NCBI RefSeq assembly: GCF_016807805.1
Contig: NZ_CP063362.1
Span: 5,994,501 to 6,058,500, forward strand
Source: Xanthobacter dioxanivorans
Lineage (GTDB): Bacteria > Pseudomonadota > Alphaproteobacteria > Rhizobiales > Xanthobacteraceae
Length of the DNA stretch: 64,000 nt
Direction: 5' to 3'
Part shown: positions 2,141 through 37,460 of the stretch, piece by piece
Layout: every line of letters starts with the position of its first letter
Position numbering within the stretch: position 1 is the stretch's first letter
Notes under the pieces: model-generated
Seen by the model: only the letters and a program-made list of their open reading frames with translations
What the model was told of the DNA's origin: nothing
Database searches by the model: none
Program-made: the position numbers and the translations under genes

Positions 2141-2354
2141 AATCTCATGATGGGCCGACAAGTAGGAAGTTGCTCTCGCCCGGCAAGACCGAAAAAAGAC
2201 GGGAACACTCAAGCTGGCATCGGCATGCCCGTCACCTTCTGCGAACATGACGCCTTCGGCAGGGTCGCCAAGGCAGAAGAACCGGCGGCTTGGCCGCTTT
2301 CCATAAAACCCGGTCTCGGGCGCCCCCGCATCCGTCACCCAAGCAGTGTGTATC

Positions 2355-6574: not shown

Positions 6575-6664
6575 GGGGCCGCCATTCGAAGCGAGGCCCC
6601 GCCGCGCGGCTGCTGCAACGATATCTCAAGAAAAATCATATCTTCAGAGCGAGAGAAACGTCCC

Positions 6665-12313: not shown

Positions 12314-13309
12314 ATGACAACGTCTTCCTCCACCACAGCGCCCGTCACCACCTCCGCGACCTCATCCAGGTTCCCGATGACACTGGTGCTCGGGCTTGTC
12401 GCTGTCGCGTTGCTCCTCGCCGCACCATTCGCGGTCTATCCCGTGTTCCTGATGAAGGTGATGTGCTTCGCGCTGTTCGCGTGCGCCTTCAACCTGATGC
12501 TGGGCTACACGGGGCTCTTGTCGTTCGGCCATGCGATGTTCTTCGGCGGTTCGGCGTACATCTCTGCCCACGCCATCAAGGTGCTGGGATTCACGCCGGA
12601 GTTGGGCATCCTCGCCGGCGTGCTGTTCTCGACCGTGCTGAGCTTCCTCGTCGGCCTGCTCGCCGTCCGTCGCCAAGGCATCTACTTCGCCATGGTGACG
12701 CTGGCGCTGGCGCAGATGTTCTTCTTCTTCTGCCTACAGGCCAAGTTCACCGGCGGCGAGGACGGCCTCCAGGCGGTGCCGCGCCGTGCGCTCCTCGGCT
12801 TCATCGACATCACCAAGGACAGCCATCTTTACTATTTGGTCCTGGCGATCTTCCTGTTCGGGTTCCTGGTGGTCTACCGCACCATCCACTCCCCGTTCGG
12901 GCAGGTCCTGAAGGCGATCCGCGAGAACGAGCCGCGGGCAATCTCGCTCGGCTACAGGGTGAACCAGTACAAGCTGCTCGCCTTCGTGCTGTCGGCCGCT
13001 CTGGCCGGACTTGCGGGATCGACCAAGGTGCTGGTGTTCCAACTGGCCTCGCTGACCGACGTGGCGTGGCAGATGTCGGGCGAGGTGATCCTGATGACGC
13101 TGGTGGGCGGCATGGGCACCATCCTCGGCCCGGTGGTGGGGGCGGCGGTCATCGTGACCATGCAGAACTACCTCGCAGGCCTCGGCGAGTGGGTGCTGGT
13201 GATCCAGGGCGTGATCTTCGTCGTCGCCGTCTCCCTGTTCCGCCGCGGCATCGCTGGCGAGATCGTCGCCATTGGAAGACTCTGGAAGGCCAAAAAAACA
13301 AACCAATGA
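12314..13309 (+). CDS. livM: Branched-chain amino acid type ABC permease LivM
   Basis: Second permease, 331 residues, with about nine hydrophobic segments. Family landmarks: LMLGYTGLLSFGHAMFFGGSAY in the first half and the EAA-like loop AIRENEPRAISLGYRVNQYK followed by GGMGTILGPVVGAA. It is the last gene of the operon; no periplasmic binding protein gene follows. A Liv-type binding protein occurs 17 kb away at 30703 and could serve this importer, but that is inference. Confidence 0.92.
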   Translation: MTTSSSTTAPVTTSATSSRFPMTLVLGLVAVALLLAAPFAVYPVFLMKVMCFALFACAFNLMLGYTGLLSFGHAMFFGGSAYISAHAIKVLGFTPELGILAGVLFSTVLSFLVGLLAVRRQGIYFAMVTLALAQMFFFFCLQAKFTGGEDGLQAVPRRALLGFIDITKDSHLYYLVLAIFLFGFLVVYRTIHSPFGQVLKAIRENEPRAISLGYRVNQYKLLAFVLSAALAGLAGSTKVLVFQLASLTDVAWQMSGEVILMTLVGGMGTILGPVVGAAVIVTMQNYLAGLGEWVLVIQGVIFVVAVSLFRRGIAGEIVAIGRLWKAKKTNQ

Positions 13310-23043: not shown

Positions 23044-23059
23044 CTAGGGAGACGAAACA
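23021..23059 (+). repeat. Tandem duplicated ribosome-binding region
   Basis: AGCTAAGGAGACGAAACA (23021-23038) and AGCTAGGGAGACGAAACA (23042-23059) are direct repeats with one mismatch and a period of 21. Both carry a Shine-Dalgarno element; only the second leads into an ATG (23059). Confidence 0.75.
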
Positions 23060-24150
23060 TGCCGACATCAGCGAGTGAGAAAACCGACAGCAAAGTGACA
23101 GCCTCGGCAGGCGTTCGGGCGTCGATTGCGGACTGCAAGGATCTGCCGGTGCTCGACTTAGGCCCCTATCTGGCGGATGCGCCTGGCGCGCTCGAGCAAC
23201 TGGCCTCGGATGTGAAGTTTATCCAGGAAAACCTAGGCTTCTTTGCGATCGTCAACCACGGCATCCCGCAGTCCCTGATCGATGAAGCGTTCCGCCAGAC
23301 CGAGAAGCTGTTCGAAATTCCGATGGAGGAAAAGCTCAAGCACCGGGTCGGTTTCCACCACCAGGGCTATCTCCCGCCCAAGTCCTCAATCCTGAAATCG
23401 TGCGCGATCATGGAGAAGATCGCGGTCAATACCAAGAAGGACACCAATGCCGCTTGGGTGTTCATGCGCAACCGCAACGCCGACGACCCGAAAGTGTTGG
23501 CCAATGTGCGACACCGTGGGCTGAACCAGTGGCCCGACAGCCTGCCCGAATTCAAGAAGGCGTTGGACGCGTACGTGACCGCAATGGAGCAGCTCGCCCT
23601 CAAGCTGCTGCCTATCTATGCGCGTGCGTTGGGTCTTCCCGCCGACTACTTCGAGAGCATGTTCAAGACGCCGGAGTACTACCTGCGCTGCGCCTACTAT
23701 CACCCCGAAGAGGGGATGGAAGAAGGCCAGTACGCGCTCGCGCCGCACTCTGACGGCAGCTTCCTGACGCTGCTGCCGATGACGCCGGTGCCAGGGCTGG
23801 AGGTCATGACACCCTCGAAGGAGTGGCTCAAGGTCAGCTACGTCAAGGGCGCATTGATCGTGAACACCGGGCAGGTTCTCAACCGCCTGTCAAACGACCG
23901 CTTCATTGCCACGCCACACCGTGTCGTCAACCCACCGATGAAGCGCTACGGGGTGGTCTTCTTCTTCTACCCGGACGACGACGCCAACGTAGGCCCGATC
24001 CCGTCGTGCATCGGCCCGGGCGAAAAGGCGAAGTACGACTCGCGCTCCTTCTACGACTTCTTCGTGCCCTACCTGGACGACCTTTACCACTACAACGACC
24101 CCAACTTCATGAAGGACGTTGAGCCTGAAGGCGTGACCTCGAAGGCTTGA
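23059..24150 (+). CDS. 2-oxoglutarate/Fe(II)-dependent oxygenase (isopenicillin N synthase-like family)
   Basis: 363 residues. N-terminal DIOX_N region (LPVLDLGPYLAD; NLGFFAIVNHGIP) and C-terminal jelly-roll with the iron triad His230-x-Asp232 (LAPHSDGSFLTLL) and His287 (ATPHRVVNPP). The 2-oxoglutarate arginine is Arg296, but the usual RxS motif reads R-Y-G, so the serine partner is lost. Soluble, no signal peptide. Such enzymes hydroxylate, desaturate or cleave ethers. It stands alone with its own promoter, a duplicate of the iclR control region, suggesting joint control with the mutase operon. Start fixed by GGGAG eight bases upstream. Confidence 0.88.
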   Translation: MPTSASEKTDSKVTASAGVRASIADCKDLPVLDLGPYLADAPGALEQLASDVKFIQENLGFFAIVNHGIPQSLIDEAFRQTEKLFEIPMEEKLKHRVGFHHQGYLPPKSSILKSCAIMEKIAVNTKKDTNAAWVFMRNRNADDPKVLANVRHRGLNQWPDSLPEFKKALDAYVTAMEQLALKLLPIYARALGLPADYFESMFKTPEYYLRCAYYHPEEGMEEGQYALAPHSDGSFLTLLPMTPVPGLEVMTPSKEWLKVSYVKGALIVNTGQVLNRLSNDRFIATPHRVVNPPMKRYGVVFFFYPDDDANVGPIPSCIGPGEKAKYDSRSFYDFFVPYLDDLYHYNDPNFMKDVEPEGVTSKA

Positions 24151-24237: not shown

Positions 24238-24853
24238 CTCGCGATCTCCTTCTGGCAGCCCATGCCGTCGATGGTGACGATCGCCCCGTTTAGCGTCAGC
24301 AGGTTCAAGAGCTCAGGGATGGCGGTGATCTCGTTGGACTTCTCCGCCACCTTGGCCTGGTCCAGCACCAGCAGCTGCCGGCTCGACCACGCCGAGATCA
24401 TGTGGATCGGCGCCTTGCCCCCGCCTTCCTGATAGGCGCGCCGCAGCGTCTTGCCATCGACAGCGACGATATCGGGGCCGAACTTGGTGAGGGAGCCGAC
24501 CCACGCGATGAAGCAGCTCTGGAACTGCTCGGCATCGAGAGCCGCGAACAGGTCGCCCAGCTGGTCGTGCGACGGCGTGCCATTCGCGAATGGCCGGAAG
24601 CGGCGCAGAGGCTCCAGCTTCTTCTAGCCGAACTCGGCGATCTCCACCCAGCTCTCGGCGGCGGCGAGGACGGCGACCAAGCACAGGAGCAACACCTCGT
24701 CGAGCCGATACCACACCTTGCCGACCTGGCGCGGATCTTCCAGGGGCTCGAAATACTCCAGCCACCCAACCACTTGGTCAAATGCACGCTCGGCTTGCGT
24801 CTCGGCCTGCCCCTTCGTTCTTGTCCTCCGCGAGTCAAGAGGACACAGGACAT
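24238..24853 (-). pseudogene. ISAs1-family transposase remnant
   Basis: Leftward frame with the ISAs1 features in order: DPRQVGKVWYRLDEVLLLCL, then NGTPSHDQLGDLFAALDAE, IVAVDGKTLRRA, ISAWSSRQLLVLDQ and AKVAEKSNEITAIPELLNLL / TIDGMGCQKEIA. An in-frame TAG (24624-24626) interrupts it and the C-terminal third is missing after 24238. It separates the oxygenase gene from iclR and abuts the second control block, so its arrival may be linked to the duplication. Confidence 0.8.
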
Positions 24854-24856
24854 CGA

Positions 24857-25012
24857 CAGATTCAGCCTTCGCGGGAATTGTCACGCGGAGATTCACCCAA
24901 TTGCCCTGGCGCACCGCCGCCGGCCAGTTGACAATATCGTCTAATTCCATTTCAATATCGCAAATTAAATTTTGGATATATGAAATAAATGAGCGCTGTC
25001 CGATCCGCCTCC
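24857..25012 (+). repeat. Duplicated promoter/operator block, copy 2 (iclR promoter)
   Basis: Second copy of the block at 22615-22770, about 80 percent alike by eye. It holds TTGACA (24928-24933) with TTCAAT 17 bases later, and an imperfect AT-rich dyad between 24949 and 24986 whose outer arms are ATTTCA and TGAAAT. It ends in the start of the functional iclR gene. Confidence 0.85.
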
Positions 25013-25729
25013 CGGGCCCTTCAGATTTTCGAGGCGTTTGGCGCCGAGGGGCGCCCGCTCCTGCTGACGGAGATCGCGCCGTCCATCGATGTCCCGTTGT
25101 CGAGCTGCTACGGGTTGGTCCAGACCCTGCTGGAGCGGGGCTATCTTTATGCGGTGAGCCGGCGGCGCGGGTTTTATCCCACCCGCAAGCTTCATACGCT
25201 CTCCACCGCCATCGTGGCGAAGGACCCCTACCTCCAGCGCCTCCTGCCCCATCTCGAGCGGCTGCGCGATGCGGTGAGCGAGACGGTGATCGTGGGCACC
25301 CGCCAGAACGACCAGGTGCTCTATCTGGAAGTGCTCGAAGGGCCGCAAACCATCCGCTATTCGGCGAGCCCTGGCGACTTCAAGCCGTTGCATTCGAGTT
25401 CCATCGGCAAGGCCTTATTGTCCCTCGCTCCGGACGACGGCGTGGACACCCTCGCGGCCAAGGCACTCCTCCCGGCGATCACGCCGAACACCATCACGGA
25501 CCGGGACCGGCTGAAGGCGGATCTCAAGGCGGGCCGGGCGCGGGGCTACTTCATGACCCGCGGGGAGAACATGGTGGATGTGACCGCGCTCGCCGCGCCC
25601 ATGGAGCTGGAGGGGATGACTGTTGGCGTTGCCATCGCCGGTCCCAGCTACCGGATGGAACAATCCATGGAGACCTTGGCCGACCGCCTGCTCGATACGG
25701 TCGGAACCATCAAGGCGGTCGCATCATGA
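24989..25729 (+). CDS. IclR-family transcriptional regulator
   Basis: 246 residues. N-terminal winged HTH (ALQIFEAFGAEGRPLLLTEI, then SSCYGLVQTLLERGYL) and C-terminal effector domain with LHSSSIGKALLS and the RGYFMTRGENMVDVTALAAP motif typical of IclR family members. First gene of the mutase operon; its stop overlaps the crotonase ATG. IclR proteins usually sense a pathway acid and repress their own operon. Because the oxygenase has the same control block, both units are probably its targets (inference). Confidence 0.92.
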   Translation: MSAVRSASRALQIFEAFGAEGRPLLLTEIAPSIDVPLSSCYGLVQTLLERGYLYAVSRRRGFYPTRKLHTLSTAIVAKDPYLQRLLPHLERLRDAVSETVIVGTRQNDQVLYLEVLEGPQTIRYSASPGDFKPLHSSSIGKALLSLAPDDGVDTLAAKALLPAITPNTITDRDRLKADLKAGRARGYFMTRGENMVDVTALAAPMELEGMTVGVAIAGPSYRMEQSMETLADRLLDTVGTIKAVAS

Positions 25730-26505
25730 ACGCGCAGACGCACCAATTACGGGTGGCGGTGACCGGCGCCCGTCTCGACGTGGTCATCGACCGGCCCCAG
25801 GCGCGCAACGCCCTGAGCCTGGAGACCCTGCACGAGCTGGAGATGGTTTTCACCCGCTTCGCCGAGGTGCCGGATCTCAGCGTCGCCGTCCTCACCGGCG
25901 CGGGCGAGCGGGCCTTCGCCGCCGGGGGCGACCTGAAGGAGCTGAACGACCATCGCTCGGAGGCGCAGGCCGGAGCCCTGTTCGATGCGGGCCGCGCGGC
26001 CCTCGATGCGGTGCGGCGCTTCCCCCTGCCCGTGGTGGCGGCGCTCAATGGCGTTGCCCTGGGCGGGGGCGCGGAGCTGGCCATGGCGTGCGATTTCCGC
26101 CTCGCCGCAGGCCATGCCGCCATCGGCTTCGTGCAGGCGCAACTCGCCATCACCACAGGGTTCGGCGGCGTCGCCGATCTTCAGGCCGCCATTGGTCCGC
26201 GCAAGGCCATGGGCATGATGCTGTCCGCCCGCGTCTTCAAGGCGCCGGAGGCCGAGGCGCAGGGCCTGTTCGATGCCGTGGCGGGGGAGAACGAGCCCCT
26301 GGAGGTCCTCGTCTCTCGCTTCCTCACGCCGATCCTGGAGCGTCCGCCGGCGCTGGCGCGCGACATCAAGGCCGTGGCGCGTGCCGCCATGGACCCGGCG
26401 CGCTGCGCCGCCGTGGGCGAGGAGGAACGGGCGCGCTTCATCCGCGCCTGGACGAGCGAGGAACACTGGGCCGCCGCCGACCGCTTGCTGGCCCGCAGGA
26501 GCTGA
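25726..26505 (+). CDS. Crotonase-fold enoyl-CoA hydratase/isomerase family protein
   Basis: 259 residues. Oxyanion-hole segments FAAGGDLKEL and NGVALGGGAELAMACD are present. The first catalytic glutamate is kept (Glu117, GGGAE), but the second position, normally PE in FGQPE, reads A-Q (Gln139 in FVQAQLAITTGFGG). Classical hydratases need both, so this member may be a decarboxylase, hydrolase or isomerase. Its place beside a B12 mutase, a CoA-transferase and MeaB mirrors the E. coli scpA-argK-scpB-scpC set, where the crotonase is methylmalonyl-CoA decarboxylase. Translation is coupled to iclR by ATGA. Confidence 0.88.
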   Translation: MNAQTHQLRVAVTGARLDVVIDRPQARNALSLETLHELEMVFTRFAEVPDLSVAVLTGAGERAFAAGGDLKELNDHRSEAQAGALFDAGRAALDAVRRFPLPVVAALNGVALGGGAELAMACDFRLAAGHAAIGFVQAQLAITTGFGGVADLQAAIGPRKAMGMMLSARVFKAPEAEAQGLFDAVAGENEPLEVLVSRFLTPILERPPALARDIKAVARAAMDPARCAAVGEEERARFIRAWTSEEHWAAADRLLARRS

Positions 26506-26513
26506 GAGAAGCC

Positions 26514-28142
26514 ATGACCGCCCTCAAGCAGAAGCAGGATCTCGACGCCGAGGCGCCGCGCGGCATCTCGCCGGTGACCCCGTCGGGCGTCGAAGCGCCC
26601 CGCGTCGTCACCGCGGACATGGTGCCCCACGGCGCCCCGGAGCTGCCGGGGGACTATCCCTTCACCCGCGGCATCTTTCCCGACGGCTTCCGCGGTCGCG
26701 CCTGGACCATGCGGCAATATTCCGGCTTCGGCACCGCCGAGGAATCCAACGCGCGGTACCAGTTCCTGCTGCGCGAGGGGCAGACGGGCCTGTCCGTTGC
26801 CCTCGACCTGCCCACCCAGTGCGGCTACGACCCCAGCGATCCCATGGCGCGCTCGGAGATCGGCAAGGTGGGCGTCTCCCTGTCGAACCTCTCCGAGATG
26901 GAGATCCTGTTCGACGGCATCGACCTTGCGAAGATCTCCACCTCCTTCACCATCAACGGCACGGCGGCGCTCATCTACGCCATGTATGTGGCCTGCGCTG
27001 AGCGGCGCGGCATAGATCCGGCGCTGCTCACGGGCACCATCCAGAACGACATCCTGAAGGAATATGTGGCGCGGGGCACCTGGATCTTCCCGGTGCGGCC
27101 CTCCATGCGGCTCACCGCGGATTCCATCCTCTACGCCAACAGGACGACGCCGCGCTTCAACCCCATCTCCATCGCCGGCGCCCACATGCGCGATGCCGGC
27201 TGCAACGCGGTGGAGGAGATGGCCTACACACTGGCCAACGGCCTCGCCTATGTGGACGAGCTGCTGCGGCGCGGCGGCAATGCGGAGAAGTTCGCCAAGC
27301 GCCTCTCCTTCTTCTTCTACGTGCACATGGACCTGTTCGAGGAGGTGGCGAAGTTCCGCGCCGGCCGGCGCATCTGGGCGGAGATCATGAAGACGCGTTA
27401 CGGCGTCACCGATCCGAAGGCACAGATGTTCCGCTTCGGCGTGGTGTGCGGCGGCTCCTCACTGGTGGCGCCGCAGCCGCAGAACAACATCGTGCGGGTC
27501 GCCATCGAGACGGTGGCGGCCGTGCTCTCCGGTGCCCAGTCCATCTTCACCTGCGCCTATGACGAGGCGTTCCAGATCCCCACCGAGACCTCCGCCGAGA
27601 TCGCCCTGCGCACCCAGCAGATCGTGGCGCTGGAAAGCGGCGTGGCGCGCAGCGTCGATGCCCTGGGCGGCTCCCACTACGTGGAGTGGCTCACCGACGA
27701 GATGGAGAAGCGCATCCGCGAGCGCATGGACGAGGTGGAAGCCTATGGCGGCGCGGTCAAGGCCATCGAGGACGGATGGCTGCAGATGCGCGTCGCCCAG
27801 CGCGCCCACGAGCGCAAGCGGCAGATCGATTCCGGCGCCTTCCCGGTGGTGGGGCTCAACGTCTTCCGCAAGGAGGACGAGGACCGCGGCGCCGTGGAGG
27901 TGTTCCGCATCGACCCCAAGGCGAGCCGCCGCGTGGTGGAGAAGTACGAGGCGGTGATGGACCGGCGCGACAATGCCGCCGTCTCCCGCGCCCTCGACCG
28001 GCTCGGCGCCGCGGCCGCCGACGACGGTGAGAACATCATGCCGTACCTCGTCGAATGCTGCCACGCCTACGCCACCGTCGGTGAGATGGTGGCGCGGCTC
28101 AAGGCCTGCTGGGGCGAGTTCCAGGAGCCCATCCGGCTATGA
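26514..28142 (+). CDS. B12-dependent acyl-CoA mutase, large (substrate-binding) subunit
   Basis: 542 residues, the TIM-barrel half of a split methylmalonyl-CoA-mutase-family enzyme. YPFTRGIFPDGFRGRAWTMR and GTIQNDILKEYVARGTWIFP are unmistakable. Compared with methylmalonyl-CoA mutase (P. shermanii numbering from memory) it keeps Tyr89 (Tyr69 here), Arg207 (Arg187), Gln197 (Gln177) and His244 (His224), but Tyr243 is Ala223. The normally conserved (T/A)HSQTSG reads FGVVCGG (308-314) and QSLHTN reads QSIFTC (342-347). It lacks the Ile/Asp pair of 2-hydroxyisobutyryl-CoA mutase. It should migrate a group on a short acyl-CoA by an adenosyl radical; the substrate is unknown. ATG at 26514 lies 8 bases after the crotonase stop and overlaps the small subunit. 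Confidence 0.92.
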   Translation: MTALKQKQDLDAEAPRGISPVTPSGVEAPRVVTADMVPHGAPELPGDYPFTRGIFPDGFRGRAWTMRQYSGFGTAEESNARYQFLLREGQTGLSVALDLPTQCGYDPSDPMARSEIGKVGVSLSNLSEMEILFDGIDLAKISTSFTINGTAALIYAMYVACAERRGIDPALLTGTIQNDILKEYVARGTWIFPVRPSMRLTADSILYANRTTPRFNPISIAGAHMRDAGCNAVEEMAYTLANGLAYVDELLRRGGNAEKFAKRLSFFFYVHMDLFEEVAKFRAGRRIWAEIMKTRYGVTDPKAQMFRFGVVCGGSSLVAPQPQNNIVRVAIETVAAVLSGAQSIFTCAYDEAFQIPTETSAEIALRTQQIVALESGVARSVDALGGSHYVEWLTDEMEKRIRERMDEVEAYGGAVKAIEDGWLQMRVAQRAHERKRQIDSGAFPVVGLNVFRKEDEDRGAVEVFRIDPKASRRVVEKYEAVMDRRDNAAVSRALDRLGAAAADDGENIMPYLVECCHAYATVGEMVARLKACWGEFQEPIRL

Positions 28143-28581
28143 GCGACATCCTCGAAACCCCCGCTGCTTCCACCGCTCTGCTCAAGGGCAAACGCATCCT
28201 GGTGGCCAAGCCCGGCCTCGACGGCCACGACGTGGGCGCCAAGGTGATCGCCCTGGCGCTGCGCGATGCGGGCGCGGAGGTGATCTATACGGGCCTGCGC
28301 AAGAGCCCCGGCTTCATCGCCCGCGTGGCGGTGGACGAGGACGTGGACGCGGTGGGCCTGTCCATTCTCTCCGGCAGCCACAAGGAATTGGTGGCCGAGT
28401 CCATCGCTGCGCTGGCGCAGGAGGGGGCCTCGGCCATTCCCGTCTTCGTGGGGGCACCATTCCCGCGGAGGATGTGCCGGCTTTGCTCGAGCTCGGCGTC
28501 AAGGCGGTCTTCACCGCCGACATGAAGCTCGACGACGTGGTCGCCGAGGTAGCCGCGGGCCTTCAGGAAAATCCGGCATGA
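28139..28581 (+). CDS. B12-dependent acyl-CoA mutase, small (cobalamin-binding) subunit (one frameshift)
   Basis: About 147 residues when read through. The base-off/His-on motif DxHxxG is present (LDGHDVGAKVIALALRDAG), followed by the SxL loop (VGLSILSGSHKELV) and, in the next frame, GGTIPAEDVPALLELGVKAV. The frame breaks at a G5 run (28450-28454); a sixth G gives VFVGGTIPAED, the expected GG loop. It completes the mutase with the large subunit upstream. Stop TGA overlaps the ATG of the CoA-transferase gene. Confidence 0.88.
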
Positions 28582-29704
28582 GCGGGCCCCTCACCGGAAT
28601 CCGCATCATCGAGGTCGGGCACATGCTCATGGGCCCGTACAGCACCATGCTGCTGGCGGATCTGGGGGCAGACGTCATCAAGGTGGAGCCGCCCGAGGGT
28701 GATATCGGCCGGCGCATCAGCCCCCACACCATCGGCGGCCATAACGCCTATTTCGCCAGCCTCAACCGCAACAAGAAGAGCATCGTGCTCGACCTCGCCA
28801 GCGGCGAGGGGCAGCGCAAGCTGGGCGACCTGGTGGCCGGCTCCCATGCGCTGCTCACCAACCTGCGGCCCTCCGCCATCCGCAAGCTGGGGCTCACCTA
28901 CACGCACCTGAAGCGCTGGAACCCGCGGATCGTCTGCGTCGCTCTCACCGGCTACGGCCTCGACAGCCCCTATGCGGAGCGGCCCGCCTACGACTACGTC
29001 ATCCAGGCGCTCACCGGCATCATGGCGCTGACCGGCGAGCCCGACGGCCCGCCGGTGAAGACCGGCTATTCGGCCGTGGACAATTCCGCCGGCATCATGG
29101 GGGCGCTGGGGCTCGTGGCGAAGCTGCTCGAAGGCAAGGGCGGGCAGGTGGACATCGCCATGTACGACGTCATGCTCTCCCAGCTCAACTACATCGCCGG
29201 CGCCTGGCTCAATGCCCGCGAGCCGGCGCGGCGCATGGATCGATCCGCCCACCCCTACATCGTCCCCGCGCAGATCTTCCCCACCCGCGACGGCTGGATC
29301 GCGCTCTTCATCACCCATGACGACTTCTGGCGCCGGTTCGCCCAGGAGCTGGGGCAGGGGCACTGGCTGACCGATCCGCGCTTCTCCACCATGGATGCAC
29401 GCCGAGCCAACCGCGACCTGGTGCTGGCGAGATCGAGGCAGCGCTGAAGGGCGAGGGGACGGACGACCTGGTGCGGCGCCTGTCGGCGCTGGGCGTGGTG
29501 GCGGCCGGCGTCGAGACCCTGGAGCAGGCGCTCGCCAGCGCGCATACCGCCGCGCGGAACATGGTCGCCCACGTGGATTGCGGCGGTGCCACCATCCGCA
29601 TGGTGGGCAATCCCATCAAGGTGATGGGGGCCAAGGAGCATTTCGCGCCGCCGCCCCTGCTGGGCGAGCATGACGACCTCGCCGATGGAGGGCACGCGGC
29701 ATGA
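28578..29704 (+). CDS. Class III CoA-transferase, CaiB/BaiF family (one frameshift)
   Basis: About 375 residues once joined. N-terminus GIRIIEVGHMLMGPYSTMLLADLGADVIKVEPPEG is the family signature, and the catalytic aspartate lies in RPAYDYVIQALTG. The reading frame ends early at about 29428-29431; one added base gives LVLAEIEAALKGEG and continues to the stop at 29704. Moves CoA from a donor acyl-CoA to a free acid, so it may charge the mutase substrate. The same job is done by ScpC in the E. coli Sbm cluster, but with an unrelated fold. Overlaps meaB by four bases. Confidence 0.87.
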
Positions 29705-30600
29705 ACGTGGCCCCGCGCACCCCGATGCTGGATCGGCGCGCGCTGGGCCGGGCGCTGTCGCGCGCCGCCGATGCCGCGGTGGCGGACATCCTCAAGGCAT
29801 CCCGTGGCGAAGGCGGGCACCTGGCCCGCCGCATCGGCGTGACCGGCCCGCCGGGTGCCGGCAAGAGCACGCTCATTGCCGCACTGGCCCGCCATCGCCT
29901 GGCCCGCGCCGGCCGGGTCGCCATCGTCGCCATCGATCCCACCAGCCCCAAGACCGGCGGCTCCATCCTGGGCGACCGCATCCGCATGGATGCCCTGGTG
30001 GACGATCCGCGCGTCTTCATCCGCTCCATCGCCAGCCGCAGCGCCACCGATGGCCTGGCCGACAACCTGCCCGAGATCCTCGCCGTGTTCGATGATTTCG
30101 GCTTCGACGAGATCATCCTGGAGACCGTGGGCGTCGGCCAGTCGGAGTTCGCCGTGCGCGAGCTGGTGGAGGTGGAGCTTCTCGTGCTCTCCCCCGGCGC
30201 CGGCGACCAGATCCAGGCCATGAAAGCCGGCATCCTGGAGACCGCCGACATCTATGTGATCAACAAGGCCGACCAGCCCGACGCCGCCAAGGTGGAGGCG
30301 GAGCTGAAGGCGACGCTCGCCCTGACCTCCCCTGGCGATCCGCCGGCGGTGCTGCGCGTGCGCGCCGATGCGGGGGAAAATATCGCCGCCCTCGACGACG
30401 CCATCGAGGCCGCCGCGGCACGCCAGGCCGCGGACGGTGACGGCGCGCGGCGCCGGCGGGCGCGCCAGAGGATCAAGGGCCTCGTCTGGCGCCAGCTCAC
30501 GCGGATCCTCGCGGATCTGCCGCAGGAGGCGTTCGAGGAGCCGCTTCCCGACCTTTACGCCACGGTCCTGTCCGGCCTCGCCGAAGAAGGGGCCGCCTGA
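29701..30600 (+). CDS. meaB: MeaB/ArgK-family G-protein chaperone of the B12 mutase
   Basis: 299-residue GTPase that loads and protects the adenosylcobalamin mutase. Walker A GPPGAGKST, the MeaB-specific IDPTSPKTGGSILGDRIRM, switch region ETVGVGQSE and the guanine motif NKAD are all in place. It shares the operon with both mutase subunits, which supports a true B12-dependent radical enzyme rather than a relic. Normal length and no lesions. Confidence 0.95.
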   Translation: MNVAPRTPMLDRRALGRALSRAADAAVADILKASRGEGGHLARRIGVTGPPGAGKSTLIAALARHRLARAGRVAIVAIDPTSPKTGGSILGDRIRMDALVDDPRVFIRSIASRSATDGLADNLPEILAVFDDFGFDEIILETVGVGQSEFAVRELVEVELLVLSPGAGDQIQAMKAGILETADIYVINKADQPDAAKVEAELKATLALTSPGDPPAVLRVRADAGENIAALDDAIEAAAARQAADGDGARRRRARQRIKGLVWRQLTRILADLPQEAFEEPLPDLYATVLSGLAEEGAA

Positions 30601-30702: not shown

Positions 30703-31932
30703 ATGAAGATGAAGCGCATGGTCATGGCGCTCGCTCTGCTCGCGAGCGCGGGAATTGGTCCGGCTGCGGCCGGAAATGGGGCGGTCAAGATCGGGGTCCT
30801 GTCCGATATGGCCGGGATCTACTCCGACATATCCGGCGCGGGCGCGCTCATCGCCGCCCAGCTCGCGGTGGAGGATTTCGGCGGCAAGGCGCTCGGCAAG
30901 CCCATCGAGCTCGTCTCCGCCGATCACCAGACCAAGCCCGACGTGGGCCTCGCCATCGCGCGCCGGTGGATCGACAGCGAGGGCGTGGACGCCATCGTCG
31001 ATGTCCCGGTCTCTTCCATCGGCCTGGCCATCCAGGCGCTCACGCTGGAGAAGGACAGGATATTCCTGAACTCCTCCGGCGCCGCCTCCGACTTCACCGG
31101 CAAGGCGTGCTCGCCGCTGGCGTCCCAATGGCCGCACGACACCTATATCATGGGGACGAGCGTCGGCCGCGCCGTGGTCCAGTCGGGCGGCAAGAGATGG
31201 TTCTTCCTGACGGCGGACTACGTATTCGGCCACAATTTGGAGCGCGACACCATGGCGGCCGTCAAGAAGGCGGGCGGAACCGTGCTCGGCTCCGCGCGCC
31301 ATCCACTCAACACGCAGGACTTCTCCTCGTTCCTGCTGCAGGCCCAGTCATCCAAGGCCGATGTCATCGGGCTCGCCAATGCGGCCGGGGACACCACCCA
31401 GGCGATCAAGCAGGCGAGCGAGTTCGGCCTGAGCGCCGGCGGCACCCGGCTCGCGGCCACCCTGCTCTTCATCACCGACGTCCATGCCATGGGGCTGAAG
31501 ATTGCGCAGGGCACGGTCCTGACCGAGCCGTTCTACTGGGATCTCGACGACAGCAGCCGCGCTTGGTCCAAGCGCTTCATGGCGAGGATCGGAGGCAAGG
31601 CGCCCGGAACGCTGCAGGCCTCGGTGTACAGCTCCGTCCTGCATTATCTCAAGGCCGTAGAGAAGGTCGGATCCACCGACGCAAGGAAGGTCTCCGAGGC
31701 CATGAAGGAGATGCGGATCAGCGACGCCCTCATCAAGGACGGCTACATCCGGGCGGATGGACGGGTGATGCGGGACTATTACCTGTTCCAGATCAAGGCG
31801 CCGGAAGAATCAAAGTACCCATGGGACTATTATAAGCTCATCTTAAGGATACCGCCGGAGGAGGTCACCCGTCCCCTGTCCGAAGGTGGCTGCCCGCTCG
31901 TCACGGAGGCAAAGGCCAGCCCGGCCAGATGA
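30703..31932 (+). CDS. Liv-type (HAAT) ABC transporter substrate-binding protein
   Basis: 409 residues. Signal peptide MKMKRMVMALALLASAGIGP with likely cleavage after AAAG, then the periplasmic binding-protein type 1 fold (KIGVLSDMAGIYSDISGAG; DADHQTKPDVG-like loop; YVFGHNLERD). It is placed 102 bases after meaB with a strong GGGGGAGGA ribosome-binding site. No permease or ATPase adjoins it. The LivGFHM system at 9.9-13.3 kb lacks a binding protein, so the two may belong together. This subfamily often binds aromatic or hydroxy acids. Confidence 0.88.
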   Translation: MKMKRMVMALALLASAGIGPAAAGNGAVKIGVLSDMAGIYSDISGAGALIAAQLAVEDFGGKALGKPIELVSADHQTKPDVGLAIARRWIDSEGVDAIVDVPVSSIGLAIQALTLEKDRIFLNSSGAASDFTGKACSPLASQWPHDTYIMGTSVGRAVVQSGGKRWFFLTADYVFGHNLERDTMAAVKKAGGTVLGSARHPLNTQDFSSFLLQAQSSKADVIGLANAAGDTTQAIKQASEFGLSAGGTRLAATLLFITDVHAMGLKIAQGTVLTEPFYWDLDDSSRAWSKRFMARIGGKAPGTLQASVYSSVLHYLKAVEKVGSTDARKVSEAMKEMRISDALIKDGYIRADGRVMRDYYLFQIKAPEESKYPWDYYKLILRIPPEEVTRPLSEGGCPLVTEAKASPAR

Positions 31933-31983
31933 CAGGTGGACGAGCGGGAGAGCGGAAGGATGGCTGGCCTCAGCCGTCCCGCC

Positions 31984-32194
31984 GCCGGGCCCGTCCACGA
32001 CACAGGCGGGGACCAGCCCCGCCGCATAGGAGAGGCGAGGATGAACGCACACCAGCACTTTATCGGCGCCGCCTGGATGGGCGCGCCGCCGGACCCGTCC
32101 ACGACACAGGCAGGGACCAGCCCCGCCGCATGGGAGAGGCGAGGATGAACGCGCACCAGCACTTTATCGGTGGCGCCTGGATGGGCGCGCCGGC
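31984..32194 (+). repeat. Tandem direct repeat, two copies, period 104 bases
   Basis: Copy 1 (about 31984-32090) and copy 2 (about 32088-32194) differ at only a few positions. Each carries CGTCCACGACACAGGC, a GAGAGGCGAGG ribosome-binding site, an ATG and the codons for MNAHQHFIG-AWMGAP of the aldehyde dehydrogenase. Copy 2 leads into the full gene; copy 1 (ATG at 32041) runs out of frame and stops at about 32148. Confidence 0.9.
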
Positions 32195-33577
32195 GACGCT
32201 TCCGGTGATCAACCCTTCCGACGGGCGCGTGATCGGGGAGATTGCCCGCGGCGGCAGCGCCGAGATCGGGCAGGCCGTCTGCGCCGCCGAAGCCGCCATG
32301 GCGGGCGAATGGGGTGCCCTGGAGGCGGCCGCGCGCGGCCGCCTCCTCAGCCGGCTCGCCAACCTCATCGGCCGCGACGCGGAGCGGCTCGCCCGAATGG
32401 AAAGCGAGGACGTCGGCAAGCCCTTGTCGCTCGCCCGCAACGACGTGAAGGTCTGCGCCCGCTATTTCGAATATTATGGCGGCGCCGCCGACAAGGTCCA
32501 CGGCGACACGATTCCCTTCTTCAACGGCTATACGGTCGCCACCGTCTACGAGCCGCACGGCGTCGTCGGCATCATCACGCCGTGGAACTATCCCCTGCAG
32601 ATGAACGGCCGCGCGGTCGCCCCGGCGCTCGCCATGGGCAATGCGGTGGTTCTCAAGCCGGCCGAGGACACCTCGCTCACCGCCCTCGCCCTCGCGGAGC
32701 TGGCCGCCGAGGCGGGCTTCCCCAAGGGCGCCCTCAACGTGGTGACGGGGCTCGGCGAGGAGGCCGGCGCAGCGCTCGCCGCCCATCCGGGCATCCACCA
32801 TATCAGCTTCACCGGCTCGCGCGAGGTGGGCATTCTCATCCAGGCCGCTGCGGCGAAGAACGTCATTCCGGTGACCCTGGAGCTGGGCGGAAAATCACCG
32901 CAGGTCGTGTTCGCCGACGCTGACTGCGCCGAGGCGGCAAACGTCATCACACGCGCCATCACCCAGAATGCCGGCCAGACCTGCTCCGCCGGCTCGCGCG
33001 TCGTCATTGAGGATACGGTCTACGACCGCTTCACCGCCGAGCTTACCGAGCGTTTCCGCGCGCTCAGGGTCGGTACCGGAGACCAGGACCTCGACCTCGG
33101 GCCGCTCGTCAACCCGCAGCAGCATGCGCGGGTCGCGTCCTATCTCGATCTCGCCCGCCGGGACGGCCTGCGCATCCTCGCCGAAGGCAGTTTCGCCTCC
33201 AACCTGCCGCCGGACGGCTTCTATGTGAAGCCGACCCTTATCGGCGACGTGCCGCCGGACCACCGGCTCGCGCAGGAGGAAATCTTCGGGCCGGTTCTCG
33301 TCGCCATCCGTGCGAAGGACGAGGCGGACGCCATGCGCATCGCCAACAGCACCGAGTTCGGGCTCGTTGCCGGCGTCTGGACCGCCGATATCGGCCGCGC
33401 CATGCGTCTCGCCCACAAGCTGCGCGTGGGACAGGTCTACATCAACAATTTTGGCGCGGGGGCGGTGTCGAGCTCCCCTTCGGCGGAGTGAAGGGATCCG
33501 GACACGGTCGCGAGAAAGGGATGGAGGCGCTCCGCGGCTTCGGCTCTCTCAAGACCATCGCCATCAAACATGGCTGA
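32145..33577 (+). CDS. NAD(P)-dependent aldehyde dehydrogenase (one frameshift)
   Basis: About 478 residues. Motifs in order: GIITPWNYPLQMNGRAVAPA, FTGSREVG, the general-base glutamate in LELGGKSPQ, the nucleophile in NAGQTCSAGSR, and EEIFGPVL. The frame breaks at a G5 run (33458-33462); a sixth G gives NNFGAGGGVELPFGGVKGSG and the normal C-terminus ending at 33577. The start is the ATG at 32145, in the second unit of a tandem repeat. It oxidises an aldehyde to the acid that could enter the CoA-transferase/mutase route. Confidence 0.9.
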
Positions 33578-33608
33578 ACGCTACATCCAAGGGAATGAGG
33601 AGGACGAC

Positions 33609-34355
33609 ATGCGTCTGAAGGGCAAAGCCGCACTTGTGACCGGCGCGGCGCAGGGGTTTGGCTTCGGCATCGCCGAGACTTTTGCCCGCGAAGGGGCACT
33701 GGTTGCGCTCCTCGACATCCATCCCGACAAGGTGCGGGAGGCTGCAGCGGCGATCGGCGGGAGCGCATTCGCCGTGACGGCGGACGTGAGGAAGGCCGAG
33801 AGCGTGGACGAGGCGGTCAAGGAAGTCCTCGAGCGCGCAGGACAGCTTCATATCGTCGTCAACAATGCCGGCGTCACCCACCGCAACCAATCCCTGCTGG
33901 ACGTATCGGAAGAAGAGTTCGACCGCGTGTTCGCGGTCAATGTGAAGTCGATCTTCCAGATGGCGAAGGCGGTCGTGCCCCACTTCCGGGCCCATGGCGG
34001 GGGCGTCTTCCTCAACATCACCTCGACGGGCGCCGTGCGGCCGCGGCCGGGGCTCACCTGGTACAACGGCTCCAAGGGCGCGGCAGAGGTGATCTCCAAA
34101 TCCATGGCGGTGGAGCTCGCGCCCGACCGCATCCGCGTGAACGCGCTCGCGCCGGTGGCGGGCGATACGCCGCTGCTCACCACTTTCATGGGCGAGGACA
34201 CTCCTGAGCGCCGTCGCGCTTTCACGTCCGTCATCCCCTGGGGCCGGTTCTCGACCCCGCAGGACATCGCCAACGCCGCCCTTTTCCTATGTTCGGACGA
34301 GGCCGATATGGTGACGGGTGCCGTGCTCACGGTGGATGGCGGACGTTGTGTCTAG
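33609..34355 (+). CDS. Short-chain dehydrogenase/reductase (SDR)
   Basis: 248 residues, classical SDR. Cofactor motif TGAAQGFGFGIA (11-22), NNAG (85-88), catalytic Ser139, Tyr152 and Lys156 (YNGSK), and Asn111. An acidic residue after the second strand (LLDIHPD) suggests NAD(H). The ATG at 33609 is preferred because GAGGAGG lies five bases before it and the conserved fold begins at once; an upstream ATG at 33570 lies inside the aldehyde dehydrogenase end. Likely oxidises the alcohol ahead of the aldehyde dehydrogenase. Confidence 0.9.
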   Translation: MRLKGKAALVTGAAQGFGFGIAETFAREGALVALLDIHPDKVREAAAAIGGSAFAVTADVRKAESVDEAVKEVLERAGQLHIVVNNAGVTHRNQSLLDVSEEEFDRVFAVNVKSIFQMAKAVVPHFRAHGGGVFLNITSTGAVRPRPGLTWYNGSKGAAEVISKSMAVELAPDRIRVNALAPVAGDTPLLTTFMGEDTPERRRAFTSVIPWGRFSTPQDIANAALFLCSDEADMVTGAVLTVDGGRCV

Positions 34356-34580
34356 AGCGGCGCCCGCACAAGCTGATCGCGCCGCAGGAGGATGCCGCAA
34401 AACTGATCGGCGGCCCAAAGTTCAAGTCGAGGACTTCGCTATGTGATCATGGGGAGCGCAAAGACATCCGCGACGCGGTTCGCGCTATGCGCGGACTTTC
34501 CCGACGGGGATCACGCTCCAAGGAAGGCAATCAGACGCAATGCTGGAAAAAAGCCGGCGTCTGCAAGGAGGGAGGATGTC

Positions 34581-35597
34581 ATGTCCAAGACGTTGCTCAG
34601 GGGCACTCTTGCCGCAGTCCTGCTCGCGGGCCTTCCGCTCGCCGCGCCACTCGCGGCGAAGGCCGAGCCCATTACCCTCAAGCTCGCCCACCAATGGCCG
34701 CAGGACGAGAAGGACTATGTGGTGGCGGCCGCCGTCAAGTTCGCCAGCGAGGTGGAGAAGCGCACCAACGGTGAGATCAAGATCACCTTCTATCCCGCCC
34801 AGTCCTTGGCCAAGGCCTCCAACACCCATGTCGCCCTGAAGACCGGAACCGTGGACCTCGCCGTCTATCCCTACATCTATGCAGCCGGCGCCATCCCCGA
34901 GATGAACCTCATCCTGATGCCCGGCATCTGGAAGACCCATGACGACGTCTTCGCCTTCCGCAAGTCGGACGCGTGGAAGAAGATTGAGGCCAAGGCCGAG
35001 GCCTACGGCTTCAAGACCCTCTCCTGGATCCAGATCTCCGGCGGCGTCGCCTCCTCGGGCGCGCCCGTTCATGGGCCGGACGACGTGAAGGGCAAGAAGG
35101 TGAGGGCCGCCGGCAAGTATATGGAGGCGGCGCTGCATGATGCGGGGGCGACCCCGGTGTCCATGCCCTCGTCCGACAACTACAACGCCATGCAGCTCGG
35201 CCTCTTGGACGCCATGTGGACCTCCTCCTCCTCGTTCGGCGCCTTCCGCCTCTATGAGGTCTCCAAGGCCTACACCTCGCCGGAGGAATATTCGGTCTAC
35301 TTCACCATCGAGCCCATCGCCATCAGCATGAAGACGTGGGAGAAGCTGACGCCCGCGCAGCAGAAGATCCTCATGGAGGTGGGCGCCAGCCTCGAGCCCG
35401 GCAGCCTCGCCGGCGCCAAGGAGGAGGACGCGCGGATCGCGAAGGAGTTCGCCGATCACGGCGTGAAGGTCACCAAGATGTCCCTCAAGGAGTGGGACAG
35501 CTGGCAGCCCTTCTTCAAGCGCAGCCACGAGAAGTTCAAGGCGGACTTCCCGCAGGCGGCGCCCATCCTGGACATGATGCTCGCCGGCAAGTCGTGA
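34581..35597 (+). CDS. dctP: TRAP transporter solute-binding protein (DctP)
   Basis: 338 residues with a clear Sec signal (LLRGTLAAVLLAGLPLAAPL, cleavage near AKA-E). Mature protein starts ITLKLAHQWPQDEKDYVVAA, and FYPAQSLAKASNTHVALKTG plus VRAAGKYMEAALHDAGA fit the DctP family, whose members bind organic acids by a conserved arginine. The arginine expected near KKVRAAG is present. Ribosome-binding site GGAGGGAGG precedes ATG 34581. First gene of dctPQM; probably brings the pathway acid into the cell with sodium. Confidence 0.92.
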   Translation: MSKTLLRGTLAAVLLAGLPLAAPLAAKAEPITLKLAHQWPQDEKDYVVAAAVKFASEVEKRTNGEIKITFYPAQSLAKASNTHVALKTGTVDLAVYPYIYAAGAIPEMNLILMPGIWKTHDDVFAFRKSDAWKKIEAKAEAYGFKTLSWIQISGGVASSGAPVHGPDDVKGKKVRAAGKYMEAALHDAGATPVSMPSSDNYNAMQLGLLDAMWTSSSSFGAFRLYEVSKAYTSPEEYSVYFTIEPIAISMKTWEKLTPAQQKILMEVGASLEPGSLAGAKEEDARIAKEFADHGVKVTKMSLKEWDSWQPFFKRSHEKFKADFPQAAPILDMMLAGKS

Positions 35598-35608
35598 GCC
35601 GTGAAGCC

Positions 35609-36175
35609 ATGAGCCAGGACACCGGCCGGCCGGCCAATCCACAAGGGGAGGGGGCGTCGACGGCGCCCCCTTTTATCGAGCGCCTCGCGGGGTTGGTCGT
35701 CGCGAGCGCGGGCCTCGCGGCCGGCGTCATCGCCGCGTCGGTGTGCTACGAGGTCTTCATGCGCTCGGTTCTCGGCTATTCCGTGATCTGGGTGGAAGAG
35801 GTCTCGGCCTATCTCATCGGCTACATCGTCTTCGTGGGCATGGGCGCCGCGCTTTACCAGGGCGCCCATGTGGAGGTCGATTTTCTCCTGGTGAGCCTGA
35901 AGGGGCGGGCGGCCAGCCGGTTGCGCTTATTCTGCGATCTTGCGGTGCTACTGCTGGCCGGCGTGCTGGTGGCCTTGAGCTGGGGCTATTGGCACGATGC
36001 CTTCACCAGCGGCGAACGTTCCGTGAGCATGCTCTCCGTCCCGCTCTGGATTCCCTACCTCACCTTCCTTGCCGGCAGCGTTCTCCTGTTCGCCTTCCAG
36101 GCGGCGAGGCTGCTCGGACGGCTCTGCTCCATGCGCCCGCGCGCGCAGGCGGCCCATCGCGAGGTGCCATCGTGA
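35609..36175 (+). CDS. dctQ: TRAP transporter small permease (DctQ)
   Basis: 188 residues with four membrane helices, the DctQ pattern: VCYEVFMRSVLGYSVIWVEE, then YLIGYIVFVGMGAALYQGAHVEVD. Gene lies 11 bases after dctP. A GTG 15 bases upstream is a possible alternative start. It holds the binding protein and large permease together. Confidence 0.9.
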   Translation: MSQDTGRPANPQGEGASTAPPFIERLAGLVVASAGLAAGVIAASVCYEVFMRSVLGYSVIWVEEVSAYLIGYIVFVGMGAALYQGAHVEVDFLLVSLKGRAASRLRLFCDLAVLLLAGVLVALSWGYWHDAFTSGERSVSMLSVPLWIPYLTFLAGSVLLFAFQAARLLGRLCSMRPRAQAAHREVPS

Positions 36176-37460
36176 CAGCGACCGCGGTCTTCATGTTCGG
36201 CGGCCTCATGGGCCTCATGCTGGTGGGCGTGCCGGTGGCCTTCGCGCTGTTCGCCATCGCCATCTCCACGCTGCTCATGGCGGGGGCGGGGATTGGTCGG
36301 CGCTGGGCCTGGTGCCCAGCACCATCTGGGATTCGGTCACCAACTTCACGCTCACGGCGGTGCCGCTCTACATTCTCATGGGTGCCATCATCGCCGCCTC
36401 CGGCATGGGCGCGCGGCTCTATTCGGCCATCGCCACCCTGTCTGCGGGGCTGCCCGGAAGCCTTGCGGTGGCCACCACCATCGCCTGCGCGGTGATGGCC
36501 GCCATCTCCGGCTCCAGCGTGGCCACGGCCGCCGCCATCGGTCGCTTCTCTGTCAGCGAGATGCGGCGCTTCGGCTATCGCGAATCCGATGCCTGCGGGG
36601 CGGTCGCCGCGGGGGGAACGCTCGGCATCCTCATTCCGCCGTCCATCCCCATGGTCGTCTACGGCGTCATTGCGGAGGAATCCGTCGGCAAGCTGTTCAT
36701 GGCGGGCATCCTGCCGGGCCTGCTGCTGGCGCTGCTGTTCGGCGCCTACCAGATGTGGCTGGCCCGCGCGCGGGTCTCCGCCTTGGCCCAGAGCGCGCAC
36801 ATGGGGCCGATCAGCCTTTCGGACCGGGCGCGGGCCCTGGTGGAGATCCTGCCGGTGGCGGCGCTCATCGCCATCATCCTGGGCTCCATCTATACGGGCA
36901 TAGCCACGCCCACGGAGACGGCGGCCATCGGCGTCGCCGTCAGCCTGCTCCTGGCCTTCGGGCTCTATCGCGAGCTGGATTGGCGCAAGTGCCGTCTGAT
37001 CCTCATGGAGACGGGCCGCGGCAGCATCATGGTGCTGGCCATCATCGCGGGCGCCATGCTGTTCGGCTATGCCCTCACCACCACCGATGTGGCGCCCACG
37101 CTCTCGCGGGCGGTGGCCGGCGCGAACCTGCCGCCGTGGCTGGTCTTCATCGCCATCAATCTGCTGCTGCTCTTCCTGGGCTGCTTCCTGGAGACCTTGT
37201 CCATCATCGTCATCACCACGCCCATCATCATCCCCATCATCGAGACATTCGGGTGGGACAAGGTGTGGTTCGGCGTGATCTTGATGATCAACATGGAGAT
37301 GGCGCTCATCACGCCGCCCGTGGGGCTCAATCTGTTCGTGGTGAAGGGCGTGGTTCCTGAGGTTTCTCTCGGCCGGATCATTTCAGGCACCCTCCCCTAC
37401 GTTTTGATCATGGCCTTGGCACTGGCCCTCGTTGCGGTCCTGCCGCAACTTTTGATCTGA
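36172..37460 (+). CDS. dctM: TRAP transporter large permease (DctM) (one frameshift)
   Basis: About 430 residues with many helices; GTG start at 36172 overlaps the dctQ stop (GTGA). N-terminus MFGGLMGLMLVGVPVAFALF; later GTLGILIPPSIPMVVYGVIA and NLLLLFLGCFLETLSIIVIT are DctM landmarks. The frame changes at 36288-36291 (G4); one added G reads GAGDWSALGLVPSTIWDSV and restores the protein. Sodium-coupled import channel of the TRAP system. Confidence 0.88.

Follow-up and report, generated by a model that had tools for sequence, protein, structure and literature searches.

Described relatives of the locus

The Sbm operon of Escherichia coli (scpA, argK, scpB and scpC) is annotated as encoding a mutase, a mutase-interacting GTPase, a methylmalonyl-CoA decarboxylase and a CoA-transferase. 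B12 acyl-CoA mutases carry out carbon-skeleton shifts that are hard for chemistry, and few substrate classes are known for them. ECM acts on a larger diacid. HCM (structure 4r3u, Methylibium L121 and Xaut_5021 of Py2) is split into two subunits and has a MeaB-type gene in its operon. ActD and MatB of the actinonin and matlystatin pathways are likewise split and are proposed 2-pentylsuccinyl-CoA mutases interconverting alkylmalonyl- and alkylsuccinyl-CoA (PMC5719088).

Here we analysed a stretch of 64,000 nucleotides from the soil-type bacterium Xanthobacter dioxanivorans (the window) that carries an operon for a split mutase of this superfamily. The operon consists of six plus-strand genes at 24989–30600:

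24989–25729, + strand: IclR-family regulator at the head of the operon (Pfam HTH_IclR, IclR_C)
25726–26505, + strand: crotonase-fold enzyme, proposed substituted-malonyl-CoA decarboxylase (ECH_1)
26514–28142, + strand: B12 acyl-CoA mutase large subunit, 542 aa (PF01642)
28139–28581, + strand: B12-binding small subunit, broken frame with open part 28139–28525 (B12-binding domain; PGLDGHDVG motif)
28578–29704, + strand: class III CoA-transferase, broken frame with open part 28578–29447 (PF02515, profile positions 1–280 of 366)
29701–30600, + strand: MeaB-type GTPase chaperone (PF03308, 239.9 bits, cut-off 23.1; TIGR00750, 234.4 bits, slightly below the cut-off of 240.75)

The gene roles match the annotation of the E. 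coli operon. ScpA, however, is a single polypeptide that clusters with MCM, whereas the window mutase is split and lies in a clade of its own. The scpC product is annotated as a propionyl-CoA:succinate CoA transferase, which we take to belong to a different CoA-transferase class from the class III enzyme found here. The window also has IclR and TRAP genes, which are absent from the 10 kb shown around the Sbm genes. ActD and MatB resemble the window mutase by description rather than by sequence, in being split and in the reaction proposed for them; they differ in being biosynthetic, in coming from actinomycetes and in being accompanied by a carboxylase/reductase (PMC5719088).

An earlier note on this DNA had described the same six genes in the same order, and had compared their roles to those of Sbm with a different transferase; both descriptions were confirmed. 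Its statement that the genes overlap by four bases or nearly so applies to iclR/crotonase and to the mutase large/small subunit genes, which overlap by four bases, and to the 8-base gap between the crotonase and large-subunit genes. At the small subunit/CoA-transferase and CoA-transferase/meaB junctions, the four-base overlaps appear only when each gene is read in the frame of its stop.

Conservation of the operon

At least one core neighbour adjoined the large-subunit gene in all 22 distinct relatives, which belong to the alpha-, beta- and gammaproteobacteria. Chance is therefore ruled out, by a wide margin, as the source of the arrangement. An IclR gene adjoined the operon in 16 of the 22. 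No CoA-transferase gene was found in five of them, one of which encodes an acyl-CoA ligase and a P450 close by, and the contig of a sixth ends too early. Inverted repeats, each different, were present upstream of iclR in L006, L015 and L018, but no such operator candidate was seen in the window stretch, L011, L014 or L118. The window contained no RNA family at the gathering threshold and no tRNA. We did not find the operon described in the open-access literature searched, including passages of PMC5719088, PMC10481361 and PMC2847961; the gene set is conserved yet apparently unstudied.

The mutase large subunit forms a separate clade

The large subunit matched PF01642 with 629.3 bits (cut-off 22.1) over profile positions 2–512 of 512, which places it in the superfamily. 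Against the NCBIfam MCM equivalog it reached 538.8 bits, below the cut-off of 876, and against the IcmF equivalog 271.6 bits (cut-off 1500). The host genome has four other PF01642 matches. One of them, L001, exceeds the MCM cut-off with 1271 bits, so the window mutase is not needed as an MCM.

Trees were built with MCM, HCM, ECM-type and PCM-like rows and no characterised ICM row. The large subunit and its relatives (22 rows) formed a separate clade with support of 100/100, as did MCM (nine rows, 100/100), and the large subunit fell outside the HCM, ECM-type (six rows) and PCM-like clades as well. This outcome agrees with the earlier note, which had proposed such a phylogeny and had called the enzyme a split mutase of unknown substrate. 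The MCM label of L001 is confirmed by NCBIfam, and the HCM rows are anchored by Methylibium L121, which aligns with 4r3u over its full length (1263.5 bits). ECM or PCM models were absent among the NCBIfam matches; the ECM-type rows are putative ECM, and we take the second mutase of the Py2 plasmid to be PCM. The latter and the large subunit fall in separate clades (100/100). HCM 4r3u is the best solved-structure match of the large subunit, but HCM is only about 47% identical and has an annotated acyl-CoA ligase where the window has a CoA-transferase.

The carboxylate clamp is kept and the pocket is altered

Using MCM numbering, we found Tyr89, Gln197, Arg207, His244 and Glu370 in all 23 clade rows. 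Tyr89 and Arg207 (Y69 and R187 in the window) presumably form the carboxylate clamp of MCM. Retention of this pair points to a mutase substrate with a second carboxylate. By contrast, six positions that are constant in all nine MCM rows were changed in every clade row: Tyr243 to Ala, His328 to Gly, Gln330 to Val, Thr331 to Cys, His364 to Phe, and Asn366 to Cys (20 rows) or Ala (three rows). The corresponding window residues are A223, G309, V311, C312, F345 and C347. Among the best 120 of 7998 scored protein matches, the Arg and the Ala were kept in 120 and the Tyr in 118.

The HCM rows have Ile/Gln at positions 89/207, and the PCM-like rows have Leu/Val at the first and Asn/Leu at the second, so that the clamp is absent from both; Phe/Gln is presumably the ICM signature. 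With the Tyr/Arg pair, the separation from the HCM and PCM-like clades and the low IcmF score, we reject membership in HCM, ICM or PCM. The analogy drawn in the earlier note with enzymes of isobutyryl-, 2-hydroxyisobutyryl- and pivalyl-CoA is thus not supported, given the clamp. The ECM-type rows are closer in this respect: all six keep the clamp and are changed at His328, Thr331, His364 and Asn366. This likeness is partial, as they retain Tyr243 and Gln330; they are also single chains (frames of 657 and 710 aa), 37–39% identical, and in a separate clade.

Because residues kept in nearly all other rows examined are lost, the active site appears to be enlarged. Some of the changed positions presumably contact the adenosyl group in MCM, and their loss could change function unpredictably. 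The mutase probably acts on branched diacids and not on the monoacids of its best-known relatives. An intact clamp combined with an opened pocket in a conserved clade yields a specific prediction, namely substituted diacids.

Crotonase and CoA-transferase

The crotonase keeps the first catalytic Glu, whereas the second hydratase Glu is replaced by Gln. This position is Gln in 19 of the 20 relatives with a crotonase, His in one and Glu in none. The active-site Tyr of ScpB/YgfG (in VPY) is Thr in the window enzyme. Structure prediction gave a confident crotonase-fold model, and the 50 rows shown by a fold search with it were all of crotonase fold and did not single out a decarboxylase of the ScpB kind.

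The open part of the CoA-transferase scored 305.6 bits against PF02515, above the cut-off, and is thus a class III member. The PAYDY motif, with its presumably catalytic Asp in YD, was kept in all 16 loci that have the gene. Among NCBIfam models, the open part scored best with those for succinate-glutarate, oxalate and mesaconate CoA-transferases, without reaching the cut-off of any.

Flanking genes

The operon is flanked by the following features:

23059–24150, + strand: 2OG-Fe(II) oxygenase of isopenicillin-N-synthase type, putative feeder (Pfam DIOX_N, 2OG-FeII_Oxy)
24313–24950, − strand: degraded transposase remnant between oxygenase and operon (DDE_Tnp_1_assoc match in 24624–24950; no family match in two further frames of the region)
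30703–31932, + strand: periplasmic binding protein (PBP) of LIV type, putative feeder module (Peripla_BP_6)
31929–33491, + strand: aldehyde dehydrogenase (ALDH), putative feeder module (Aldedh)
33570–34355, + strand: SDR dehydrogenase, putative feeder module (adh_short_C2)
34443–35597, + strand: TRAP solute-binding protein DctP (PF03480; best solved relative 4mco, E 8e-58)
35336–36175, + strand: TRAP small permease DctQ, true start probably later (PF04290)
36069–37460, + strand: TRAP large permease DctM (PF06808)

Oxygenase, PBP, ALDH and SDR genes also lie beside the operon in Diaphorobacter, with identities to the window proteins of 77%, 44%, 54% and 55%, respectively. The earlier note's link between the operon and the oxygenase, ALDH and SDR genes is borne out by this second cluster, and the four genes are perhaps a feeder module. 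The full degradation route that it proposed goes beyond this link: in a congener the TRAP genes come immediately after meaB, and the PBP, ALDH and SDR genes are absent there. Diaphorobacter was the only one of the 22 relatives with this oxygenase beside the operon, several of the contigs being short. A search of three forward frames upstream of the Sulfitobacter operon for a hidden oxygenase gene gave a single open stretch, about 107 aa long. Oxygenase matches numbered nine among 398 genomes of the phylum at 1e-45 (host 100%, the others 31–41% identity), none among 293 genomes of the order of G439, and one genome in 399 from the family of G141. No specific solved relative of the oxygenase was found. 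The window PBP is 53.5% identical to a PBP near HCM on the Py2 plasmid (L125).

In six of the 22 relatives a DctP gene adjoins the operon, and operon-adjacent transporters vary between genomes (TRAP, TAXI-TRAP, TTT and LIV-ABC). The window DctP is closest to 4mco/4mev, and its model is weak (mean pLDDT 58.7). We set aside reading the substrate from DctP and the presumed 4mco ligand, malonate, since the model is weak.

Proposed pathway and alternatives

Our preferred explanation, to which we give somewhat better than even chances, is an Sbm-like pathway, encoded by the operon, that starts from a substituted dicarboxylic acid of the C4 type. The TRAP system would import the diacid, and the class III CoA-transferase would make a substituted succinyl-CoA from it. 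This would be rearranged by the AdoCbl mutase, composed of large and small subunits and loaded by MeaB, to a substituted malonyl-CoA, from which the crotonase would release CO2 and an acyl-CoA. IclR may sense the acid or a pathway intermediate. In loci that have them, the oxygenase, SDR and ALDH may create the second carboxylate by oxidising a methyl or hydroxymethyl group on a precursor. The clamp, its presence in the ECM-type rows, the lost crotonase Glu, the diacid models that best match the CoA-transferase and DctP beside the operon in six relatives argue for this pathway. It is weakened by the varying transporters, the five relatives in which no CoA-transferase was found, a crotonase that lacks the ScpB Tyr and whose fold comparison singles out no decarboxylase, the partial likeness to ECM-type rows, and the presumed nature of the MCM roles and ECM label. 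Tentatively, and with less confidence, we suggest that the clade may be a new subfamily, wide-ranging but rare in proteobacteria, of aerobes that handles bulky substituted succinyl/malonyl-CoAs in an enlarged site, maybe with altered AdoCbl radical handling, as the core of a portable branched-dicarboxylate pathway. If true, the known routes for branched acids would be extended.

Three other substrates were weighed. In one scheme, which we consider unlikely, the 2OG oxygenase, SDR and ALDH would convert a gem-dimethyl acid such as pivalate to a 2,2-disubstituted malonate, and the CoA-transferase and mutase would turn this into a substituted succinyl-CoA, opposite in direction to the Sbm-like route. 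The clamp with room opened at Tyr243 and the module in both the window and Diaphorobacter would fit such a quaternary acid, as would PCM-like mutase genes, which adjoin the operon in L012 (by tree) and Diaphorobacter (by motif, in a cut copy) and also occur elsewhere in the host genome; the putative host ECM gene could serve the onward use of methylsuccinyl-CoA. But it leaves a decarboxylase-like crotonase superfluous, and neither the rarity of the adjacent oxygenase nor the gene order of the congener favours it. The same PCM-like neighbours, the split subunits, the match to 4r3u and the Py2-like PBP could also be taken, as in the earlier note, to indicate a branched or tertiary-carbon monocarboxylic acyl-CoA, as in ICM, HCM and PCM. 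The Tyr/Arg pair, the separate clade and the class III CoA-transferase in place of a ligase make this distinctly improbable. An ordinary second MCM, or an Sbm isozyme with succinyl-CoA itself as substrate, would share the clamp and the gene roles, yet the six changed positions, the place outside the MCM clade and a score below the equivalog cut-off that L001 passes led us to reject it as very improbable.

Two genes of the operon have broken frames in this assembly

As assembled, the reading frame of the small subunit is lost after about residue 110, and that of the CoA-transferase after about residue 283. Both breaks had been overlooked by the earlier note. Counted between a motif common to all and the stop, the window small subunit has 105 residues versus 120–128 in all 21 relatives examined, and the CoA-transferase has 154 versus 236–250 in all 16 of these relatives in which the gene was found. 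Each break corresponds to a one-base length difference from the operon of the congener, which is 88% identical. Another host region compared with its Py2-like counterpart had odd-length differences on both sides, and so discriminates little for or against assembly error.

The pathway would be functional in this strain only if both breaks are assembly errors. If both are real, the operon would be a decaying relic with the pathway switched off, which is compatible with the other explanations; we regard this as possible but lean against it. Two separate breaks in adjacent genes and the transposase remnant just upstream are what a relic might show. On the other hand, the other four genes of the operon have kept open frames, the large subunit shares 97% identity with the closest relative, and one-base length differences are a common assembly error. 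The best listed relatives of the CoA-transferase are about 375 aa long, and in a search for an intact copy from the same strain the best full-length match was 96% identical to the window protein.

Gene layout and broken frames

In the 6.65-Mb host genome, the window (G000:C1:5994501-6058500) carries the following genes around the mutase:

23059-24150, plus strand: 2OG-Fe(II) oxygenase, upstream of the operon
24313-24950, minus strand: degraded transposase, separating the oxygenase from the operon
24989-30600, plus strand: the operon, with iclR, a crotonase-fold gene, B12 mutase large subunit, B12-binding small subunit, class III CoA-transferase and meaB
downstream of the operon up to 37460, plus strand: LIV-type binding protein, aldehyde dehydrogenase (ALDH), SDR and TRAP DctPQM

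A separate group at 2346-8398 and 12314-13309 comprises an acyl-CoA ligase-like ATP-grasp protein, an enoyl-CoA hydratase/3-hydroxyacyl-CoA dehydrogenase fusion, an FAD enzyme and a LIV-type permease.

The mutase large subunit has 542 aa. The operon genes listed in the earlier note are all present, but it overlooked that the small-subunit and CoA-transferase frames are broken. These align with their relatives up to about residues 110 and 283, respectively. Counted from a motif common to all copies up to the stop codon, the window small subunit is 105 residues long versus 120-128 in all 21 relatives examined, and the CoA-transferase is 154 versus 236-250 in each of the 16 of these 21 where that gene was detected. 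Since both frames run full length in relatives, intact copies exist. Compared with the operon of a congener (DNA identity 88%), the sequence differs by one base in length at each break, which may reflect either misassembly or a genuine mutation.

Conservation and distribution

The operon is real and conserved, is built around a separate mutase clade, and is apparently uncharacterised. Before counting, we removed L002 and L086 (the window itself), L087 and L124 of G006 (same contig as the congener locus L006), L088, L089, L130 and L132 (within L122, L123, L133 and L135) and L131 and L134 (contig size and matches equal to those of L018). This left 22 relatives with a large-subunit identity of at least 67.5%, spanning alpha-, beta- and gammaproteobacteria, some of them plasmid-borne; the closest named locus is from Xanthobacter autotrophicus (97%). 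The large subunit is adjoined by the small subunit in 21 of the 22 (L019 ends there) and by the crotonase in 20. Also beside it are the CoA-transferase in 16, MeaB in 17 (leaving out the L012 copy beside its PCM-like genes) and, in 16, an IclR gene, which is divergent in three of them. Fifteen contig sizes were common to the large-subunit and CoA-transferase match lists, which covered contigs of at least 10 kb; this fits linkage of the two genes. A different arrangement was seen in L133 (G344), with an acyl-CoA ligase, a P450 and a thiolase-like gene nearby and without the CoA-transferase.

The clade is rare: counting the host, it occurs in 4 of 61 near relatives and in 4 of 398 genomes sampled from the phylum. 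Of 101 loci found, 80 were listed, and in these the large-subunit identity drops from 69% directly to 51%; since the protein matches cover the top 120 out of 7998, none of them below 71% identity, intermediates may exist.

Mutase phylogeny

A tree of 70 rows resolved the clade (22 rows), MCM (9), ECM-type (6), HCM (5) and PCM-like (4) mutases, each with a branch support of 100/100. The window mutase thus lies outside the MCM, HCM, ECM-type and PCM-like references and clusters tightly with none of them, in agreement with the earlier note; the reference tree is without a characterised ICM. The MCM label is anchored by L001, which scored above the NCBIfam cut-off, and by E. coli ScpA, and the HCM label by L121, an end-to-end match to the HCM structure 4r3u (1263.5 bits); the ECM-type and PCM-like labels are our presumption. 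The closest neighbours of the clade, L048 (an Aminicenantes MAG) and L090 (a genome of the host's order), are long-branched and joined at 97/86, a junction at which the tree program flags long branches. The nearest-neighbour mutases of L048 and L128 are changed at 328-366 and retain Tyr243; hydantoinase genes and class III CoA-transferases lie near both.

Active site and partner enzymes

Positions follow MCM numbering, taken from an alignment to 1req by adding one to the chain index. The 23 clade rows all retain Tyr89, Gln197, Arg207, His244 and Glu370 and carry Ala for Tyr243, Gly for His328, Val for Gln330, Cys for Thr331 and Phe for His364; Asn366 is replaced by Cys in 20 and by Ala in 3. 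All nine MCM rows retain these eleven residues. Among the best 120 of 7998 protein matches, Arg207 and Ala at 243 were present in 120 and Tyr89 in 118. In MCM, Tyr89 and Arg207 presumably grip the substrate carboxylate, and we take Gln330, Asn366 and Glu370 to adjoin the adenosyl group. The Tyr89/Arg207 pair is replaced in HCM (Ile and Gln; 4 rows) and in PCM-like mutases (Leu or Val at position 89, Asn or Leu at position 207; 4 rows). The six ECM-type rows share the pair with the clade but, unlike it, retain Tyr243 and Gln330; their other residues are Gly328, Val331, Gln364 and Pro366.

On the simplest interpretation of these residues, the substrate would be a diacid acyl-CoA, with more surrounding room than for succinyl-CoA. 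The earlier note rightly names no single substrate, but the class suggested by its analogy with isobutyryl-, 2-hydroxyisobutyryl- or pivalyl-CoA mutases is probably wrong given the retained pair.

The roles encoded by the E. coli Sbm stretch equal those of the operon, whereas the proteins differ. The first catalytic Glu of the crotonase is retained in the window and in 20 of 20 relatives; the second hydratase Glu is Gln in the window and 19 relatives and His in one. E. coli ScpB likewise has no Glu at the second position. The crotonase structure model was confident (mean pLDDT 89.5), and a fold search with it did not tell decarboxylase and hydratase apart. For the open part of the CoA-transferase, the best models (succinate-glutarate, oxalate and mesaconate) each scored far under the cut-off.

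The flanking oxygenase module

On a Diaphorobacter HDW4B plasmid, the operon is followed by the periplasmic binding protein (PBP), oxygenase, ALDH and SDR genes, with 44, 77, 54 and 55% identity to those of the window. In the congener, dctP immediately follows meaB, without PBP, ALDH or SDR. A Hydrogenophaga oxygenase is 93% identical to that of the window, which makes horizontal acquisition of the latter likely. Among 398 genomes of the phylum, an oxygenase above 41% identity was found in the host only; a close one occurred in 1 of 399 genomes of a family presumed to be Burkholderiaceae, where its position coincides with that of the copy on the Diaphorobacter plasmid. Two contig sizes (25529 and 13589) were common to oxygenase and mutase or CoA-transferase matches, and jittered sizes gave as many coincidences in 38 of 5000 trials; this is suggestive of oxygenase-operon linkage.

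The third motif of the oxygenase family, whose usual form we take to be RxS, was RYA or RYG in 115 of the 120 matches listed (P0121-P0240) and RYS in two, and three did not fit the pattern. The LIV-type binding protein (30703-31932) is 53.5% identical to its counterpart close to the L125 HCM operon, a protein that sits at the position of Xaut_5024 of strain Py2.

Proposed pathway

The analysis shows the gene set with its conservation, the separate clade and the active-site pattern. From there we infer a route in which the TRAP system would take up a diacid, prepared by the oxygenase module in strains that carry it, and the CoA-transferase would move CoA onto it. The mutase would then convert a substituted succinyl-CoA into the correspondingly rearranged, substituted malonyl-CoA, and loss of CO2 from this would give an acyl-CoA; IclR would control the operon. 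The main alternative has the mutase working in the reverse direction, starting from a quaternary malonyl-CoA. It is kept alive because PCM-like genes adjoin the operon in L012 and in Diaphorobacter, the latter assigned by the motif of a cut copy.

The L012 genes (L012:2965-6106) are two tandem PCM-like large subunits and a MeaB-type gene, directly adjoining the clade operon. The host itself has a further split, PCM-like mutase set (L127, G000:C1:6142319-6143782), with 92% DNA identity over 9 kb to L126 of genome G012.
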